Positions 25,209 through 50,458 of a stretch of 64,000 bases of DNA are shown piece after piece. Every line of letters starts with the position of its first letter. Within the stretch, counting starts at the first letter, position 1. Origin of the DNA: Chitinophaga oryzae (lineage in GTDB: Bacteria; Bacteroidota; Bacteroidia; Chitinophagales; Chitinophagaceae). The translations under genes were made by a program, and so were the position numbers. The stretch spans positions 1,178,001-1,242,000 of the forward strand of contig NZ_CP051204.2 of NCBI RefSeq assembly GCF_012516375.2, written 5' to 3'. The notes under the pieces are model-generated. The model saw nothing but the letters and a program-made list of their open reading frames with translations, had not been told where the DNA came from and searched no databases.

Positions 25209-27458
25209 ATGGAAACAGCGGCAGTTCAAAAATATAATCTAGACGAAGAGCAGGAAAAAAAAGAAATCGTCCGGCATTACCGCGCCTTGCTGAGGGCGCT
25301 CAAACCCCGTCTGAAAAAAGGCGACAGGGAGCTGGTACGCACTGCTTTTGAAATGGCAGCGGATGCCCATAAGGAAATGCGCCGTAAATCGGGCGAACCC
25401 TATATCCTGCATCCCCTCGCCGTGGCACAGATATGCGTGGAAGAAATCGGCCTGGGCGTACGTTCGGCCATCTGCGCCTTGTTGCACGATACCGTGGAAG
25501 ATACGGAAGTAACCCTCGAAGACGTGGCCCGCGAATTCGGTAACGAAATCGCCCACATCGTGGACGGCCTGACCAAAATATCCACTGTCATCGATTCCAA
25601 TACCAGCACGGCACAGGCGGAAAACTTCAAGAAAATACTCCTCACCCTGGCAGACGACCCAAGGGTGATCCTGATCAAACTGGCCGACAGGTTGCATAAC
25701 ATGCGCACCCTCGACAGCATGAGCCGGGAAAAACAGCTGAAAATAGCCTCTGAGACGGTGTTTATCTATGCCCCCCTGGCACACCGCCTCGGATTGTACA
25801 ATATCAAGTCCGAGATGGAAGACCTGGCCATGAAATACACGGAGCAGCAAACCTACCGTGAAATCGCCCGGCGCCTCAAGGAAACCAAACGTGAACGTAC
25901 CCGGTATATCAACGAATTCATCAAGCCTATCAAGGAAGTGTTGCAGGAGGAAGGATTTAACTTCGATATCTTCGGCCGCCCGAAATCTATCCACTCCATC
26001 CACAACAAAATCAAAACAAAAGGCGTAGCCTTTGAAGAGGTGTACGACCTGTTTGCCATCCGTATCATCCTCGACTCCCCGATAGACAAGGAAAAAGCCG
26101 ACTGCTGGAAAGTATATTCCATTATCACCGACTTTTACCACCCCAGCCCGGAACGTACGCGCGACTGGCTCAGCAACCCCAAATCCAACGGGTATGAAGC
26201 CCTGCACGTAACAGTGATGGGCCCCCAGGGTAAATGGGTGGAAGTACAGATCCGCTCCAAACGCATGAACGACTACGCCGAAAAAGGGGTGGCCGCTCAC
26301 TGGCGCTATAAGGAAGGCGCCCAGAACCCGCAGCAGGAATCCAAATTCGATCAGTGGTTCACCCAGATACGGGAGATCCTCAGCAACCCGGATTCCAATA
26401 CGCTCGACTTCCTCGCCGATTTTAAAAGCAACCTCTTTACCGAAGAGATCTACGTCTATACGCCTAAAGGCGACCTGAAAATACTGCCTGTCAACTCTAC
26501 CGCGCTGGATTTCGCTTACGCCATCCACAGCGCCGTGGGCAACAAGTGTATCGGCGCCAAGGTCAACTATAAACTGGTGCCGCTCAGCCATAAACTGCGC
26601 AGCGGAGACCAGGTGGAGATCATTACCTCCAACAAACAGAAGCCTTCGGAAGACTGGCTCAACTTTGTGCTGACGGCCAAAGCCAAGTCCAAGATCAAAG
26701 ACGCCCTGAAAGAAGAAAAAAGGAAGGTGGCCATGGATGGGAAAGCCGCGCTGGAGCGCAAGCTGGACCATATGAAGATCACCGCCAGCCAGCACAATAT
26801 CAACGAGCTGGTACAGTTCTATAAACAACCGTCGCCGCTCGATCTGTATTACCAGATTGCGGTCAAAAATATCGACCTGAAAGAGCTGAAACAGTTCACC
26901 CTGCTGGGAGACAAGCTGGAACAGCCGAAGCCGGTCAAACAGCCGGAGCATGTACCGGAAGAACATGTCAAACACCAGATCCCGAGCAAAAAAGACGCGG
27001 AACTGATCATTTTCGGCGAAAGCTCCGACAAGATTGCCTATAAACTGGCCAACTGCTGCCGCCCCATTCCGGGTGACGACGTGTTTGGCTTTATCACCGC
27101 CAGCGAAGGCCTGAAAATACACCGCACCAACTGCCCCAATGCCGCCCAGTTGCTGGCCAACTATGGCCACCGTGTGGTGAAAACCAAGTGGGTGAAGAAC
27201 AGGGAAATCTCCTTCCTCACCGGGTTACGGATCATTGGTATGGACGATGTGGGCGTTATCCACAAAATCACCAATATCATCTCCGGTGAGCTGAAAGTCA
27301 ATATCTCCGCGCTCAGCATCGAATCCAAGGAAGGGCTGTTCGAAGGCCTCATCAAAGTATACGTACATGATAAGGAAGAGCTGGATGAGCTGGTAGACCG
27401 GCTGAAAAAGCTGGAAGGCATCCAGTCCGTGCAACGGCTCGAAGAATCACAGTTATAG
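25209..27458 (+). CDS. Bifunctional (p)ppGpp synthetase/hydrolase
   Basis: A 749-residue RelA/SpoT homologue that makes and destroys the alarmone (p)ppGpp. The HD hydrolase domain (about residues 45-195) has RKSGEPYILHPLAVA and the intact metal motif LLHDTVEDTE, so hydrolase activity is expected. The synthetase domain (about 230-350) has GRPKSIHSIHNKI and YDLFAIRIIL, then SNPKSNGYEALHVTVMG. A TGS domain (about 405-465; VYTPKGDLKILPVNSTALDFAYAIH) and a C-terminal ACT domain (from about 670) complete the long form. Gene names rel, relA and spoT are all in use for this type. The gene ends inside the outermost base of palindrome B. Confidence 0.96.
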   Translation: METAAVQKYNLDEEQEKKEIVRHYRALLRALKPRLKKGDRELVRTAFEMAADAHKEMRRKSGEPYILHPLAVAQICVEEIGLGVRSAICALLHDTVEDTEVTLEDVAREFGNEIAHIVDGLTKISTVIDSNTSTAQAENFKKILLTLADDPRVILIKLADRLHNMRTLDSMSREKQLKIASETVFIYAPLAHRLGLYNIKSEMEDLAMKYTEQQTYREIARRLKETKRERTRYINEFIKPIKEVLQEEGFNFDIFGRPKSIHSIHNKIKTKGVAFEEVYDLFAIRIILDSPIDKEKADCWKVYSIITDFYHPSPERTRDWLSNPKSNGYEALHVTVMGPQGKWVEVQIRSKRMNDYAEKGVAAHWRYKEGAQNPQQESKFDQWFTQIREILSNPDSNTLDFLADFKSNLFTEEIYVYTPKGDLKILPVNSTALDFAYAIHSAVGNKCIGAKVNYKLVPLSHKLRSGDQVEIITSNKQKPSEDWLNFVLTAKAKSKIKDALKEEKRKVAMDGKAALERKLDHMKITASQHNINELVQFYKQPSPLDLYYQIAVKNIDLKELKQFTLLGDKLEQPKPVKQPEHVPEEHVKHQIPSKKDAELIIFGESSDKIAYKLANCCRPIPGDDVFGFITASEGLKIHRTNCPNAAQLLANYGHRVVKTKWVKNREISFLTGLRIIGMDDVGVIHKITNIISGELKVNISALSIESKEGLFEGLIKVYVHDKEELDELVDRLKKLEGIQSVQRLEESQL

Positions 27459-27669
27459 GCACGCAAAGGCGTCACGCAAAGGCGCCAAGCAGCAAAGGAG
27501 CAAAGAAAATAATATAGTAATTTTTAATATTTTCTTTGCTCCTTCGCTCTTTCTGCCCTTTGTATTCTTTGTGTTCTTTGTATTCTTCGTATTCTTTGCT
27601 CTCTTTGTACCCTTTGTATTTCTTTGCGCCTTTGCTGCTTAGCGCCTTTGCGTGACGGCTTGGCGTGCC
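27458..27669. repeat. Octad-arm palindrome B (CTTTGCG family)
   Basis: An imperfect inverted repeat from the last base of the rel stop codon (GGCACGC) to GCGTGCC at 27663-27669. Arms 27469-27506 and 27622-27659 match in 35 of 38 positions and consist of 8-nt units (right arm CTTTGCGC, CTTTGCTG, CTTAGCGC, CTTTGCGT). Inside: a 16-bp hairpin (27495-27510 with 27529-27544) and seven 9-nt units of the type CTTTGTATT (27558-27620). Two further CTTTGCG motifs lie just beyond, before the purA promoter. Confidence 0.85.
27495..27544 (+). terminator. Hairpin terminator after rel, within palindrome B
   Basis: AAGGAGCAAAGAAAAT (27495-27510) pairs perfectly with 27529-27544; the loop is AT-rich (18 nt). 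The downstream side is T- and C-rich. Probable terminator for rel. Confidence 0.55.
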
Positions 27670-47495: not shown

Positions 47496-48860
47496 ATGGG
47501 ACGCAAATTACTGTTAGACAAAGCACACATAGAAGGTATCCGGTATTACGACACTTACCGGGCTAACGGCGGTTATGCTGCGGCGGAGAAAGCCCTGAAA
47601 TCCATGGGCCCCGATGCTGTAGTGGAAGAAGTCAAGAAGAGTGGCCTGAGAGGCCGTGGTGGCGCAGGTTTCCCTACCGGCCTGAAATGGAGCTTCATCG
47701 CCAAACCGGAAGGTGTTCCGCGTTACCTCGTCTGCAATGCGGACGAATCAGAACCGGGCACATTCAAAGACCGTTACCTGATGGAGTTCATCCCTCACCT
47801 GCTGGTGGAAGGCCTGCTGATCTCCAGCTTCGCCCTGGGCGCTAACAGAGCCTATATCTATATCCGCGGCGAATACGCCTGGATACCGGACATCCTGGAA
47901 CAAGCCATCGCCGAAGCCAAAAACAAAGGCTGGCTGGGAAAAAACATCCTCGGTACCGGTTACGATCTCGAAATATTTGTACAACGCGGCGCCGGCGCCT
48001 ATATCTGCGGTGAAGAAACAGCCCTGCTGGAATCACTGGAAGGCAAACGCGGCAACCCCCGCATCAAACCACCATTCCCGGCCGTAAAAGGCCTGTGGGG
48101 ATGCCCTACGGTGGTAAACAACGTGGAAACCATTGCTGCGGTAGTGCCCATCGTTAACATCGGCGGCGATGAATACATCAAATTCGGTATCGGCAAATCC
48201 ACCGGTACCAAACTGATCTCCGCCTGCGGTAATATCAACAAACCCGGCGTTTATGAGATCGAAATGAACATCTCTGTAGAAGAATTTATTTACTCTGACG
48301 AATACTGCGGAGGCATCAAAGGTGGTAAACGCCTGAAAGCCTGTATCCCGGGCGGTTCTTCCGTACCGGTGCTGCCGGCCAACCTGCTGCTGAAAACAGC
48401 CAAAGGCGAAACCCGGATGATGACCTACGAAAGCCTCAACGACGGCGGTTTCGCTACCGGCTCCATGTTGGGCTCCGGTGGCTTTATCGTGATGGACGAA
48501 GACCAGTGTATTGTGCGCAATACCCTTACCTTCGCCCGTTTCTACCACCACGAGAGCTGCGGCCAGTGCAGCCCGTGCCGCGAAGGTACCGGCTGGATGA
48601 AAAAAGTGCTGCACAACATCGAATACGGAAAAGGTAAAATGAGTGATATCGACCTGTTGTGGGACATCCAGCGCAAAATCGAGGGCAATACCATCTGCCC
48701 GCTCGGCGACGCCGCCGCATGGCCTGTGGCTGCTGCCATCCGTCACTTCCGCGACGAGTTCGAATGGCACGTGACACACCCGGACGAAGCGCTGACACGC
48801 AACTTCGGCCTGGCGCACTACGCCGATCCGCTGCCTGCACCGGCACCAGCCGCTGTCTAG
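47496..48860 (+). CDS. nuoF: NADH-quinone oxidoreductase subunit F
   Basis: A 454-residue 51-kDa-type subunit where NADH is oxidised. The NADH/FMN-binding motifs are SGLRGRGGAGFPTGLKWSF and NADESEPGTFKDRYLME, with YIRGEYAWIPDILEQA and GAGAYICGEETALLESLEG. Cluster N3 ligands are in ESCGQCSPCREGT and a later Cys in NTICPLGDAAA. Complete. It ends with an Ala/Pro tail directly followed by the left arm of the CTTTGCG-type repeat. Confidence 0.97.
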   Translation: MGRKLLLDKAHIEGIRYYDTYRANGGYAAAEKALKSMGPDAVVEEVKKSGLRGRGGAGFPTGLKWSFIAKPEGVPRYLVCNADESEPGTFKDRYLMEFIPHLLVEGLLISSFALGANRAYIYIRGEYAWIPDILEQAIAEAKNKGWLGKNILGTGYDLEIFVQRGAGAYICGEETALLESLEGKRGNPRIKPPFPAVKGLWGCPTVVNNVETIAAVVPIVNIGGDEYIKFGIGKSTGTKLISACGNINKPGVYEIEMNISVEEFIYSDEYCGGIKGGKRLKACIPGGSSVPVLPANLLLKTAKGETRMMTYESLNDGGFATGSMLGSGGFIVMDEDQCIVRNTLTFARFYHHESCGQCSPCREGTGWMKKVLHNIEYGKGKMSDIDLLWDIQRKIEGNTICPLGDAAAWPVAAAIRHFRDEFEWHVTHPDEALTRNFGLAHYADPLPAPAPAAV

Positions 48861-49354
48861 CTCACGCAAAGTAGCAAAGCAGCCAAGGCGCAAAGATTAT
48901 TTTCTGGAATTGTTAACCCAAAATATTTTCATCCATGACAGAAAATGAAATCTCTAAGGAGGTTGTCGACGCATGCTTTGTAATACACACTAAGTATGGA
49001 CCAGGATTGTTTGAGTCGGTTTATGAAGAATTACTGAGTTATGAACTGATAAAGAGAAATCTGAAGATTGCAAGGCAGGTTGGGGTGAATTTGGTTCATG
49101 ACGATATAGTTCTTAAAAAAGCATTCAGGGCGGATTTGATTGTTGAAAACAAACTAATTGTTGAAATAAAATCTGTAGAAGAGTTGAAGGACATGCATTA
49201 CAAGCAGCTTTTTACATACATGAAGCTTGCAAATGTGAAACTCGGATTACTGGTTAATTTTAACGTTGCTCTGATAAAAAATGGCATTCATAGAATAGTA
49301 AACAAATTATAAAATATAACCTTTGCTCCTTTGCTGCTTAGCGGCTTTGCGAGC
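48860..49354. mobile_element. Candidate GxxExxY cassette between nuoF and nuoG
   Basis: Left arm (about 48860-48903) of 8-nt units ending in GCAAA: CACGCAAA, GTAGCAAA, GCAGCCAA, GGCGCAAA, G-ATTATTTT. Right arm (about 49311-49354), inverted: AAAATATAA, CCTTTGCT, CCTTTGCT, GCTTAGCG, GCTTTGCG, AGC. The arms pair imperfectly over about 44 nt and flank the AT-rich gene at 48935-49312. The right arm shares CTTTGCTGCTTAGCG with palindrome B. The left end touches the nuoF stop, the right end lies 15 nt before the nuoG ATG. No target-site duplication or transposase is visible, so mobility is inferred. Confidence 0.6.
48935..49312 (+). CDS. GxxExxY protein with PD-(D/E)XK nuclease signature
   Basis: A 125-residue protein. 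GLFESVY at residues 24-30 is the GxxExxY motif. Asp67, Glu77 and Lys79 in FRADLIVENKLIVEIKS, with Gln91 downstream, fit the PD-(D/E)XK nuclease fold to which the family is assigned. Activity is not known for certain. By my count, 94 of 292 bases (about 32%) in 49021-49312 are G or C, far below the neighbouring nuo genes, a sign of separate origin. It interrupts the nuo operon and is enclosed by inverted octad arms. Start ATG 48935 (MTENEISKEVVDACF) is the usual start for the family. Confidence 0.9.
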   Translation: MTENEISKEVVDACFVIHTKYGPGLFESVYEELLSYELIKRNLKIARQVGVNLVHDDIVLKKAFRADLIVENKLIVEIKSVEELKDMHYKQLFTYMKLANVKLGLLVNFNVALIKNGIHRIVNKL

Positions 49355-49369
49355 AAAAAATATATCAAG

Positions 49370-50458
49370 ATGGCGGAGGAAAAAAAATTATTCAAGGTTA
49401 AGATCGATAACATCTCCGTAGAGGTCGAACCTGGTACTACGATACTGAATGCGGCCCGGACGATAGGAGGGGATGTGGTACCGCCGGCTATGTGCTACTA
49501 CTCCAAGCTGCAGGGCAGCGGTGGTAAATGCCGTACCTGCCTGGTAAAAGTAACCAAAGGCTCCGAGGCCGACCCGCGCCCGATGCCTAAACTGGTGGCC
49601 AGCTGCCGTACCACCGTGATGGACGGTATGGAAGTGGCTAACATCACTTCTCCGGAAGTACAGGAAGCCCGTAAAGGCGTGGTGGAATTCCTGCTGCTCA
49701 ATCACCCGCTGGATTGCCCCGTTTGCGACCAGGCCGGTGAATGCGACCTGCAGAACCTGAGCTATGAACACGGCGCTGAAGCTACCCGCTACGAATTCAA
49801 ACGCAGAACTTTCGAAAAAATCGATATCGGCGACAAGATCCAGCTGCACATGACCCGTTGCATCCTCTGCTACCGCTGCGTATTCACTGCCGATCAGCTC
49901 ACGGAAAAACGCGAACACGGCGTACTCGGCCGTGGCGACGCTTCTGAGATCAGCACCTATATTCATCAGTCACTCGACAATAACTTCATCGGCAACGTGA
50001 TCGACGTTTGCCCGGTAGGCGCCCTCACCGATAAAACTTTCCGTTTCAAAAACCGCGTATGGTTCCTGAAACCGGTAGACGCCCACCGTGACTGCGAAGA
50101 CCCGAAATGTTGCGGTAAAACTGTTCTGTGGATGCGTGGCGATGAAGTGTTCCGCGTAACCGCCCGTAAAGACAAATACGGCGAAGTGGAAAACTTTATC
50201 TGCGATACCTGCCGTTTCGATAAAAAAGAAAAATCAGACTGGATCATCGAAGGCCCCCGCAAAATAGACCGTCACAGTGTTATTTCCCAGGGCCATTACG
50301 TGAATACCGTTAAACCGAAAGATCCGCTGGTGGAAGTACTGGACGGAAGGCAGCCCAAACTGCTGTTCGATATCCACTCTACAAGTGAGGTAAACCGGCC
50401 GGAAATAGATCTCTCTAAGATCGACGGTCCTGCCCATTCGGACGATTTTAATAAGTAA
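49370..50458 (+). CDS. nuoG: NADH-quinone oxidoreductase subunit G (short form)
   Basis: A 362-residue subunit with the Fe-S part only. An N-terminal ferredoxin domain holds Cys42, Cys54, Cys57 and Cys79; next come the His-Cys3 motif HPLDCPVCDQAGECDLQ and the [4Fe-4S] set CILCYRCVF with DVCPVGALTDK. The molybdopterin-oxidoreductase-like domain of the 700-900-residue E. coli type is missing; the frame ends with a short tail (DGPAHSDDFNK). The short form is common in Bacteroidota, so I do not regard it as broken. ATG 49370 is chosen; an upstream in-frame ATG at 49331 would start inside the repeat arm. Confidence 0.94.
   Translation: MAEEKKLFKVKIDNISVEVEPGTTILNAARTIGGDVVPPAMCYYSKLQGSGGKCRTCLVKVTKGSEADPRPMPKLVASCRTTVMDGMEVANITSPEVQEARKGVVEFLLLNHPLDCPVCDQAGECDLQNLSYEHGAEATRYEFKRRTFEKIDIGDKIQLHMTRCILCYRCVFTADQLTEKREHGVLGRGDASEISTYIHQSLDNNFIGNVIDVCPVGALTDKTFRFKNRVWFLKPVDAHRDCEDPKCCGKTVLWMRGDEVFRVTARKDKYGEVENFICDTCRFDKKEKSDWIIEGPRKIDRHSVISQGHYVNTVKPKDPLVEVLDGRQPKLLFDIHSTSEVNRPEIDLSKIDGPAHSDDFNK

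Follow-up and report, generated by a model that had tools for sequence, protein, structure and literature searches.

The GxxExxY gene inserted between nuoF and nuoG of Chitinophaga oryzae can be considered, together with the inverted arms that enclose it, a site-specific, homing-like selfish nuclease cassette that would read its own arms; this reading, in which binding, cleavage and homing are all inferred, is given moderate confidence. Such a compact selfish cassette would consist of a PD-(D/E)XK-type gene (GxxExxY) and an inverted pair of arms made of C[G/A]CANNG units, and each protein lineage would keep to a single junction of housekeeping genes that run in the same direction, here nuoF/nuoG. 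The nuclease would bind the units of its own arms, partly by its C-terminal tail, as covariation suggests, DNA would be cut at or near the junction, and the cassette would spread by repair of the cut. By replacing what occupies the same junction in other strains, or by entering it, arms and gene would travel together like a freestanding homing endonuclease; loss by decay would leave relics of the right arm and the 3' end of the gene, and gene-less arm pairs may be copies moved in trans. Sequence comparison demonstrates that gene and arms form a unit, that lineages stay with one site and exchange has taken place there, that the protein tail covaries with an arm letter, and that the gene is under selection.

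In the window, i.e., the whole analysed stretch of 64,000 nucleotides, nuoF (47496..48860, plus strand; TIGR01959, E=8.4e-178) ends with its stop at 48860, and the last base of this stop is the first base of the left arm, GCTCACGCAAAGTAGCAAAGCAGCCAAGGCGCAAAG (48860..48895, plus strand), which is composed of the octad units GCAAAGNN and matches the right arm in inverted orientation. An A+T-rich leader (48896..48934, plus strand) extends from the left arm to the start codon of the GxxExxY gene (48935..49312, plus strand; PF13366, TIGR04256), which encodes 125 aa with the C-terminus RIVNKL. The right arm, CCTTTGCTCCTTTGCTGCTTAGCGGCTTTGCGAGC in plus-strand letters, is an inverted copy of the left one (49320..49354, minus strand), and 15 nt beyond it, at 49370, lies the ATG of a short form of nuoG (49370..50458, plus strand), an ORF recognized by TIGR01973 with E=1.2e-84 and 285 bits, below the curated cut-off of 470. 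These coordinates agree with the initial annotation, in which the cassette abutted the nuoF stop and ended 15 nt before the nuoG start; its arms of about 44 nt are indeed inverted octads, the octads proper spanning about 35 nt. The low G+C content attributed there to the gene is also borne out: it amounts to 34.1% versus 50.4% for the whole window, with 7 of 1273 equal-sized windows as low, and the inverted match of the arms scores 25 over 39 columns, a value equalled by none of 5000 dinucleotide-model pairs (maximum 18).

The window protein matches PF13366 (PDDEXK_3; E=1.7e-37, 128.8 bits versus a curated cut-off of 22) and TIGR04256 (GxxExxY; E=3.5e-38, 130.5 bits versus a cut-off of 35). 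PF13366 was its sole match in Pfam, where no known transposase family, no S23/IVP and no Y1 REP transposase was hit. E27, Y30, D67, E77 and K79 are among the residues invariant in an alignment of 50 sequences. In a Foldseek search with the AlphaFold2 model (pLDDT 95.6) the top PDB match was 4ic1 (SSO0001, a Cas4; probability 0.99, E=3.4e-3), with lambda-type exonucleases and, weakly, I-Bth0305I also matched; no match fell under E=0.001, and a sequence search for solved relatives gave no credible one (best E 0.36). The earlier assignment to the PD-(D/E)XK fold thus agrees with the invariant D67, E77 and K79 and with the top structural match: the modelled protein has the core of that fold, a D and an E-x-K on an alpha-beta scaffold, and nuclease activity is predicted. 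Residues 122, 124 and 125 are placed by the model at the end of the last strand. Genes of this family occur in 96 of 147 sampled genomes of the bacterial family, in up to 15 copies per genome.

In a tree of 198 proteins, 3 site changes suffice for the 32 located between nuoF and nuoG, versus a shuffled mean of 30. Other sites also recur: between a HemW-like radical-SAM gene and a cyclase (10 loci), between a BatD-like and a TPR gene (5), in a split metH (4), at thiG/thiH (2–3), at sdhA/sdhB (2), at a cyanobacterial gene pair (3), and at others, the neighbours having been named by eye with domains checked for some; some of these groups comprise a single genus and may reflect plain descent. By simple ORF calling, 47 unique sites have both neighbours co-directional with the gene, versus 8 with both opposed (p=8e-8), so the gene, read in the direction of the operon, probably borrows host transcription. 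Lineages tied to one junction are more like homing than free transposition; the pattern that marks homing endonucleases, one lineage at one conserved site with a spread that departs from the host tree, is found here, with a vertical part within the genus.

A survey of this junction in the family covered 120 of 141 nuoF-bearing genomes, of which 113 had a nuoG match, giving 114 junctions with the window. GxxExxY genes are present in 22 of them (two broken) and S23-type genes, assigned by the look of the sequence with one run against Pfam, in 15 (several broken), mostly within arms of AAAAGTC-like 7-nt units. At one junction (L213, genome G071) the occupant is a DUF559 gene with inverted ends of the CCCCCTAAAGGGGG type, perhaps a third cassette class; L251 carries a gene-less octad hairpin, L189 another short one, and several junctions show apparent scars. 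Judged from these sequences, nuoF–nuoG is a shared landing site for GxxExxY, S23-type and DUF559 genes. Within the genus, GxxExxY occupies it in 13 of 79 genomes. The initial annotation had stated that a vertically inherited cassette at the same site in all relatives would speak against mobility; the outcome is mixed, since the cassette is absent from most relatives, both in the genus and in the family, but several empty junctions near the window look like decayed relics and a vertical component, described below, exists within the genus.

Exchange at the site is seen in the comparison of the window with G159, the nearest of the 79 genus genomes. While nuoF is 96% and nuoG 96–97% identical between the two, identity is 75% in the left arm, 70% and 72% in the two halves of the gene and 78% in the right arm; with the farther G220 it is 90–93% over the cassette and 91–97% in the genes outside. 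The drop versus G159, confined to the stretch from arm to arm, indicates that a different cassette, arms included, lies at the same site, with its borders at the arms. Also found were two pairs of species of one genus, one member carrying GxxExxY and its partner an S23-type gene (L264/L268, L260/L266). Across genera, the clade of 15 nuo-located proteins (SH-aLRT 97) shows 15 changes on the nuoFG tree, four rows of which have almost no nuoG, versus a shuffled mean of 14.3, and its protein distances do not follow the nuoFG distances (Mantel r=0.14, 791/5000). Within the genus of the window the gene partly tracks nuoF (Mantel r=0.57, 1/5000). Of the mobile or domesticated unit proposed in the initial annotation, the exchange of gene and arms as one unit is therefore upheld by the G159 comparison, and the congruence within the genus leaves a vertical part.

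That the cassette is an accessory gene domesticated within the complex I operon, inherited vertically and often lost, is considered very unlikely. It would agree with this congruence, with the strong purifying selection on the gene (dN/dS 0.04 for G000 versus G220, indicating that the intact gene is kept) and with the apparent relics in close relatives, but it is contradicted by the incongruence with the nuoFG tree across genera, the different cassette in the nearest species, the patchy occurrence, and the presence of the GxxExxY family in unrelated operons. As for the relics, all assessed by eye, the empty junction of G205 keeps the last codons (IHRIVNKL and the stop) and part of the right arm, and at the nuo junction of G164 the last codons are nearly kept along with part of the right arm; other junctions hold arm-like remains only, and in the empty junctions of G153, G182 and G150 no trace is visible. 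The empty junctions nearest to the window look like decayed relics, and cassette loss seems to proceed by decay. A target-site duplication was not seen by eye at the compared junctions, among which no clean pair of closely related occupied and empty sites occurs. Two further roles were rejected. A phage or plasmid as the main vehicle had one relative in an IMG/VR scan and 7 of 72,556 plasmid records, and an anti-phage defence gene had a PADLOC match to 0 families.

In the arms of GxxExxY loci, C[G/A]CANNG units are repeated as an array, in most cases at a spacing of 8 or 9 nt. Inverted arms at z>3 flank 62 of 76 relatives with full flanks, versus 12 of 179 non-adjacent control ORFs from the same loci; the relatives were drawn from the best 80 of 572 confirmed ones and are hence close to the window protein, the hosts of these best 80 being Bacteroidota, Cyanobacteria, Acidobacteria, Verrucomicrobia, Lentisphaerae, Planctomycetes, Chloroflexi, Nitrospira-like bacteria and others. 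In the set of 126 loci used for the tree, which left out L115 (203 aa), L202 and L217 (broken frames), and W and L186–L188 (the same loci as L001, L019, L011 and L014), at least four C[AG]CANNG units were found at 96 loci, versus 1 of 126 after shuffling. GxxExxY genes are thus regularly accompanied by inverted arms, as the initial annotation had supposed, yet 30 of the 126 loci have fewer than four units, some subfamilies having other inverted ends, e.g., GTTCAGACAA (by eye), and some none that could be seen. In a second group of nuo-tied GxxExxY genes (L182, L183, L186–L188, L202) the inner arms have reversed polarity, with CTTTGCG before the gene and CGCAAAG after it. A distant subfamily with longer tails (L312–L316, L327, L328, L333, L335, L342, L350, L351) has different inverted ends at several loci, which resemble TGTCTGAAC and GTTCAGACA and surround units rich in GATT (by eye).

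The two arms of a locus match each other best, none of 5000 re-pairings being as good for 124 loci and none of 10000 among the 15 nuoF–nuoG copies alone. Mismatch between arms is 2–3% at C0, C2 and G6, 6% at R1, 10–20% at positions 3–5 and 34–42% in the spacer, rates obtained by a local alignment that favours matching letters. An element acting at the RNA level, in which pairing of the arms would give the transcript a stalk for processing or for insulation of the operon, in the manner of the S23 intervening sequences of 23S rRNA, would account for the preference for the operon sense (47 sites versus 8) and for S23-type genes with inverted arms at the same site. Against it, pairing in the spacers is loosely kept, and sense-strand G.U mismatches are not significantly commoner than A.C (189 versus 175 in 103 of the 126 loci; in S23 loci 35 to 26 in the family and 3 to 4 at nuo, where numbers are small). 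A paired RNA stem was rejected for want of a G.U bias, and the RNA-level explanation as a whole is regarded as improbable. Since the fixed letters are kept, the spacers are loose and G.U is not preferred, the arms look like DNA recognition sites and fit a row of inverted putative binding sites better than a paired RNA stem.

The reading of these sites by the nuclease finds a counterpart in the protein tail. Arm type could be assigned (at least 3 units, 60% majority) at 119 of 179 loci, the latter being the 186 obtained after adding 60, minus seven with in-frame stops or unsuitable length. Among loci with CGC arms, 76 of 78 have V or A at residue 122, versus 12 of 41 among those with CAC arms; the last residue, L, and residue 124 follow the arm type likewise, and columns 125, 122 and 124 are the best three of 106 alignment columns for the second unit letter. 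For position 122, the independent pairs counted over all branches number 10.2 with the arm letter, 0.0 against it and 3.8 without difference; supported branches leave 5 pairs, in the same direction and too few for significance. Among 150 traits simulated on the tree with about as many changes, none was as strong in any of 308 features (maximum 0.55, observed 0.73). The arm type itself follows the protein tree, with 13 changes versus 21.3 expected (0/400 shuffles, also 0/400 when shuffled within host class, and 4/400 in the family alone), a result that joint inheritance of the gene with its arms would be enough to produce. The NN letters follow the tree at 1/400 in both the full set and the family set, and not significantly in the stratified set of genome contigs (158/400) or at nuo alone (71/400); the best columns for letters N4 (8, 43, 7) and N5 (11, 114, 15) are weaker. 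The covariation between tail and arm is what the earlier proposal that the nuclease recognises its arms predicts, and in that respect the proposal stands; it is a correlation and not binding. The nuclease probably reads the arm units, partly via its C-terminal tail.

Arms also occur without a gene. In the window, the copy at 27458..27669 (strand not assigned), whose recurrence had been noted in the initial annotation and is confirmed, has arms of the same octads at 27458–27508 and 27619–27669 (51 nt each, 92% complementary) around 110 nt, and lies upstream of a purA-like gene (named by eye). Several gene-less octad elements (L034–L061 and the copy in the window) contain a terminator-like hairpin, GCAAAGGAGCGAAGATC...GATCTTCGCTCCTTTGC, inside the arms. 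Inspection of the purA-side site by eye showed octad arms in common among close relatives; in more distant ones the arms are of other types or a hairpin is lacking, and none of the relatives compared revealed a clean insertion. The 8.36 Mb genome holds 62 forward and 61 reverse matches to the arm pattern (up to 3 mismatches), whereas the reversed control gives 1. Among the matches listed, many are arranged as inverted pairs, about 40–210 nt apart, with no gene inside.

Arm number follows the gene in the genus: at least 10 matches are present in 15 of 21 gene-bearing genomes and in 5 of the 58 others (p=9.7e-8, uncorrected for kinship; G180, with a weak match of E 1.4e-4, being scored as lacking the gene), and, for the gene at nuo only, in 11 of 13 versus 9 of 66 (p=1.1e-6, likewise uncorrected). 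Arms without a gene were found in G184, G203, G204, G205 and G221. Six of the 21 gene-bearing genomes have fewer than 10 matches, among which G169 and G202 carry the gene at nuo, and the arm-rich G164, G165, G174 and G222 (18, 13, 64 and 84 matches) have GxxExxY elsewhere, without arms of the octad type. In the family, at least 10 matches occur in 19 of 96 gene-bearing genomes versus 2 of 51 others (p=0.012; p=0.002 without G139). This family-wide excess is confounded, because the correlation of arm counts with S23 copy number (rho 0.45) is at least as good as that with GxxExxY (rho 0.35; 98 family genomes with both), and the genus test is the cleaner one. G139, which has no GxxExxY, gives 138 arm-pattern matches and 205 reversed-control matches; its pattern is probably an unrelated low-complexity repeat.

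These counts bear on a further explanation, in which the arms would be repeats belonging to the host, either hairpins of the REP or MITE kind that another enzyme mobilises or sequences kept alike by template switching, and the nuclease gene would be a passenger sitting in them. The 123 arm matches versus the single GxxExxY gene in the whole genome speak for it, as do the genomes that are arm-rich without the gene or with a gene bearing other arms, and the correlation of arm counts with S23 copies; moreover, quasi-palindrome correction could make both arms of one locus match. Template switching, however, would homogenise the spacers too, which differ at 34–42% while the fixed letters differ at 2–3%, and host repeats leave unexplained both the covariation of tail and arm and the exchange block that ends at the arms. 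This explanation is considered unlikely, though not negligible. Under the homing-like cassette model the arm pairs without a gene are probably MITE-like, non-autonomous copies that the cassette makes or maintains in trans.

The S23-type cassettes are the weak point of this model. Their protein lacks nuclease features, yet it occupies the nuoF–nuoG junction too and has its own arms; what makes this junction a target may thus be something other than nuclease homing, and either a host feature located there is met by both classes or the homing model needs completing. Inverted arrays whose units measure 7 nt (AAAAGTC, GTCATTT, GGGAACA, GGGAGCA and others) lie on both sides of S23/IVP (PF05635) genes. 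Inverted arms at z>3 were found in 31 of 39 S23 loci (including L406–L417 and L062–L091), with a self-match of 0.60 at lag 7, and in cyanobacteria 10 of 13 loci from four genomes (13 of 17 matches used) have the S23 gene between inverted heptad arrays. In appearance they resemble the tandem arrays of short heptads that have been known from cyanobacteria for a long time. The heptads of cyanobacteria and Xanthomonas are described, in the part of PMC4692102 that concerns them, as generally not associated with mobile elements. A wider and more tentative proposal, which we consider possible but rather doubtful, is that minimal 'array-arm' selfish cassettes form a class present throughout bacteria, comprising GxxExxY, the S23 four-helix bundle and perhaps DUF559, with a word period of 8–9 for GxxExxY and 7 for S23. 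Such cassettes would use a simple code, in which the C-terminal tail would serve the second letter and an N-terminal helix perhaps the fifth and sixth, each lineage would home to a single junction within an operon, and in many bacteria the intergenic repeats of octad and heptad type would represent their arms and gene-less remains.

In the full-text literature, with subscription journals mostly outside it, no description of GxxExxY or S23 array-arm cassettes was found, and a search of the same scope by name and family (GxxExxY, PF13366, TIGR04256) found no paper on function. If these are site-specific cassettes with their own recognition word, the arms are a substrate testable at once, and the natural CGC/CAC pairs would be a ready test of specificity. 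The same idea offers a source for the short-unit intergenic repeats left open by earlier work, and a 125-residue nuclease with a short DNA word would interest protein engineers.

Among known systems, freestanding homing endonuclease genes share with the cassette a small nuclease gene, a single site beside conserved genes, a patchy occurrence and exchange at that site, and I-Ssp6803I is a homing nuclease of the PD-(D/E)XK type. Inverted short-unit arrays, covariation of tail and arm, and gene-less arm copies set the cassette apart from them, and its cleavage of the empty allele is inferred. Like insertion sequences and MITEs it has a gene between terminal inverted repeats and gene-less copies with like arms; unlike them it shows no known transposase family, arms that are arrays of 8–9-nt units, no target duplication by eye, and lineages of a single junction. 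Similar to it are also REP/BIME elements with RAYT, dispersed intergenic palindromes related to the flanks of one gene, a Y1 transposase, whereas the GxxExxY protein is of the PD-(D/E)XK type and its arms are unit arrays, not one palindrome. The 23S rRNA intervening sequences (S23/IVP, PF05635) likewise place a small ORF between inverted arms, and S23-type cassettes occur at nuoF–nuoG too, but the GxxExxY protein is unrelated, its units are of 8–9 instead of 7 nt, and its cassette lies between nuoF and nuoG and not in 23S rRNA. Finally, the heptad repeats of cyanobacteria and Xanthomonas, as presented in the relevant part of PMC4692102, are also arrays of short units, often in inverted pairs; they are described there without an associated gene, whereas in the cyanobacterial loci compared here such heptads flank S23 genes.
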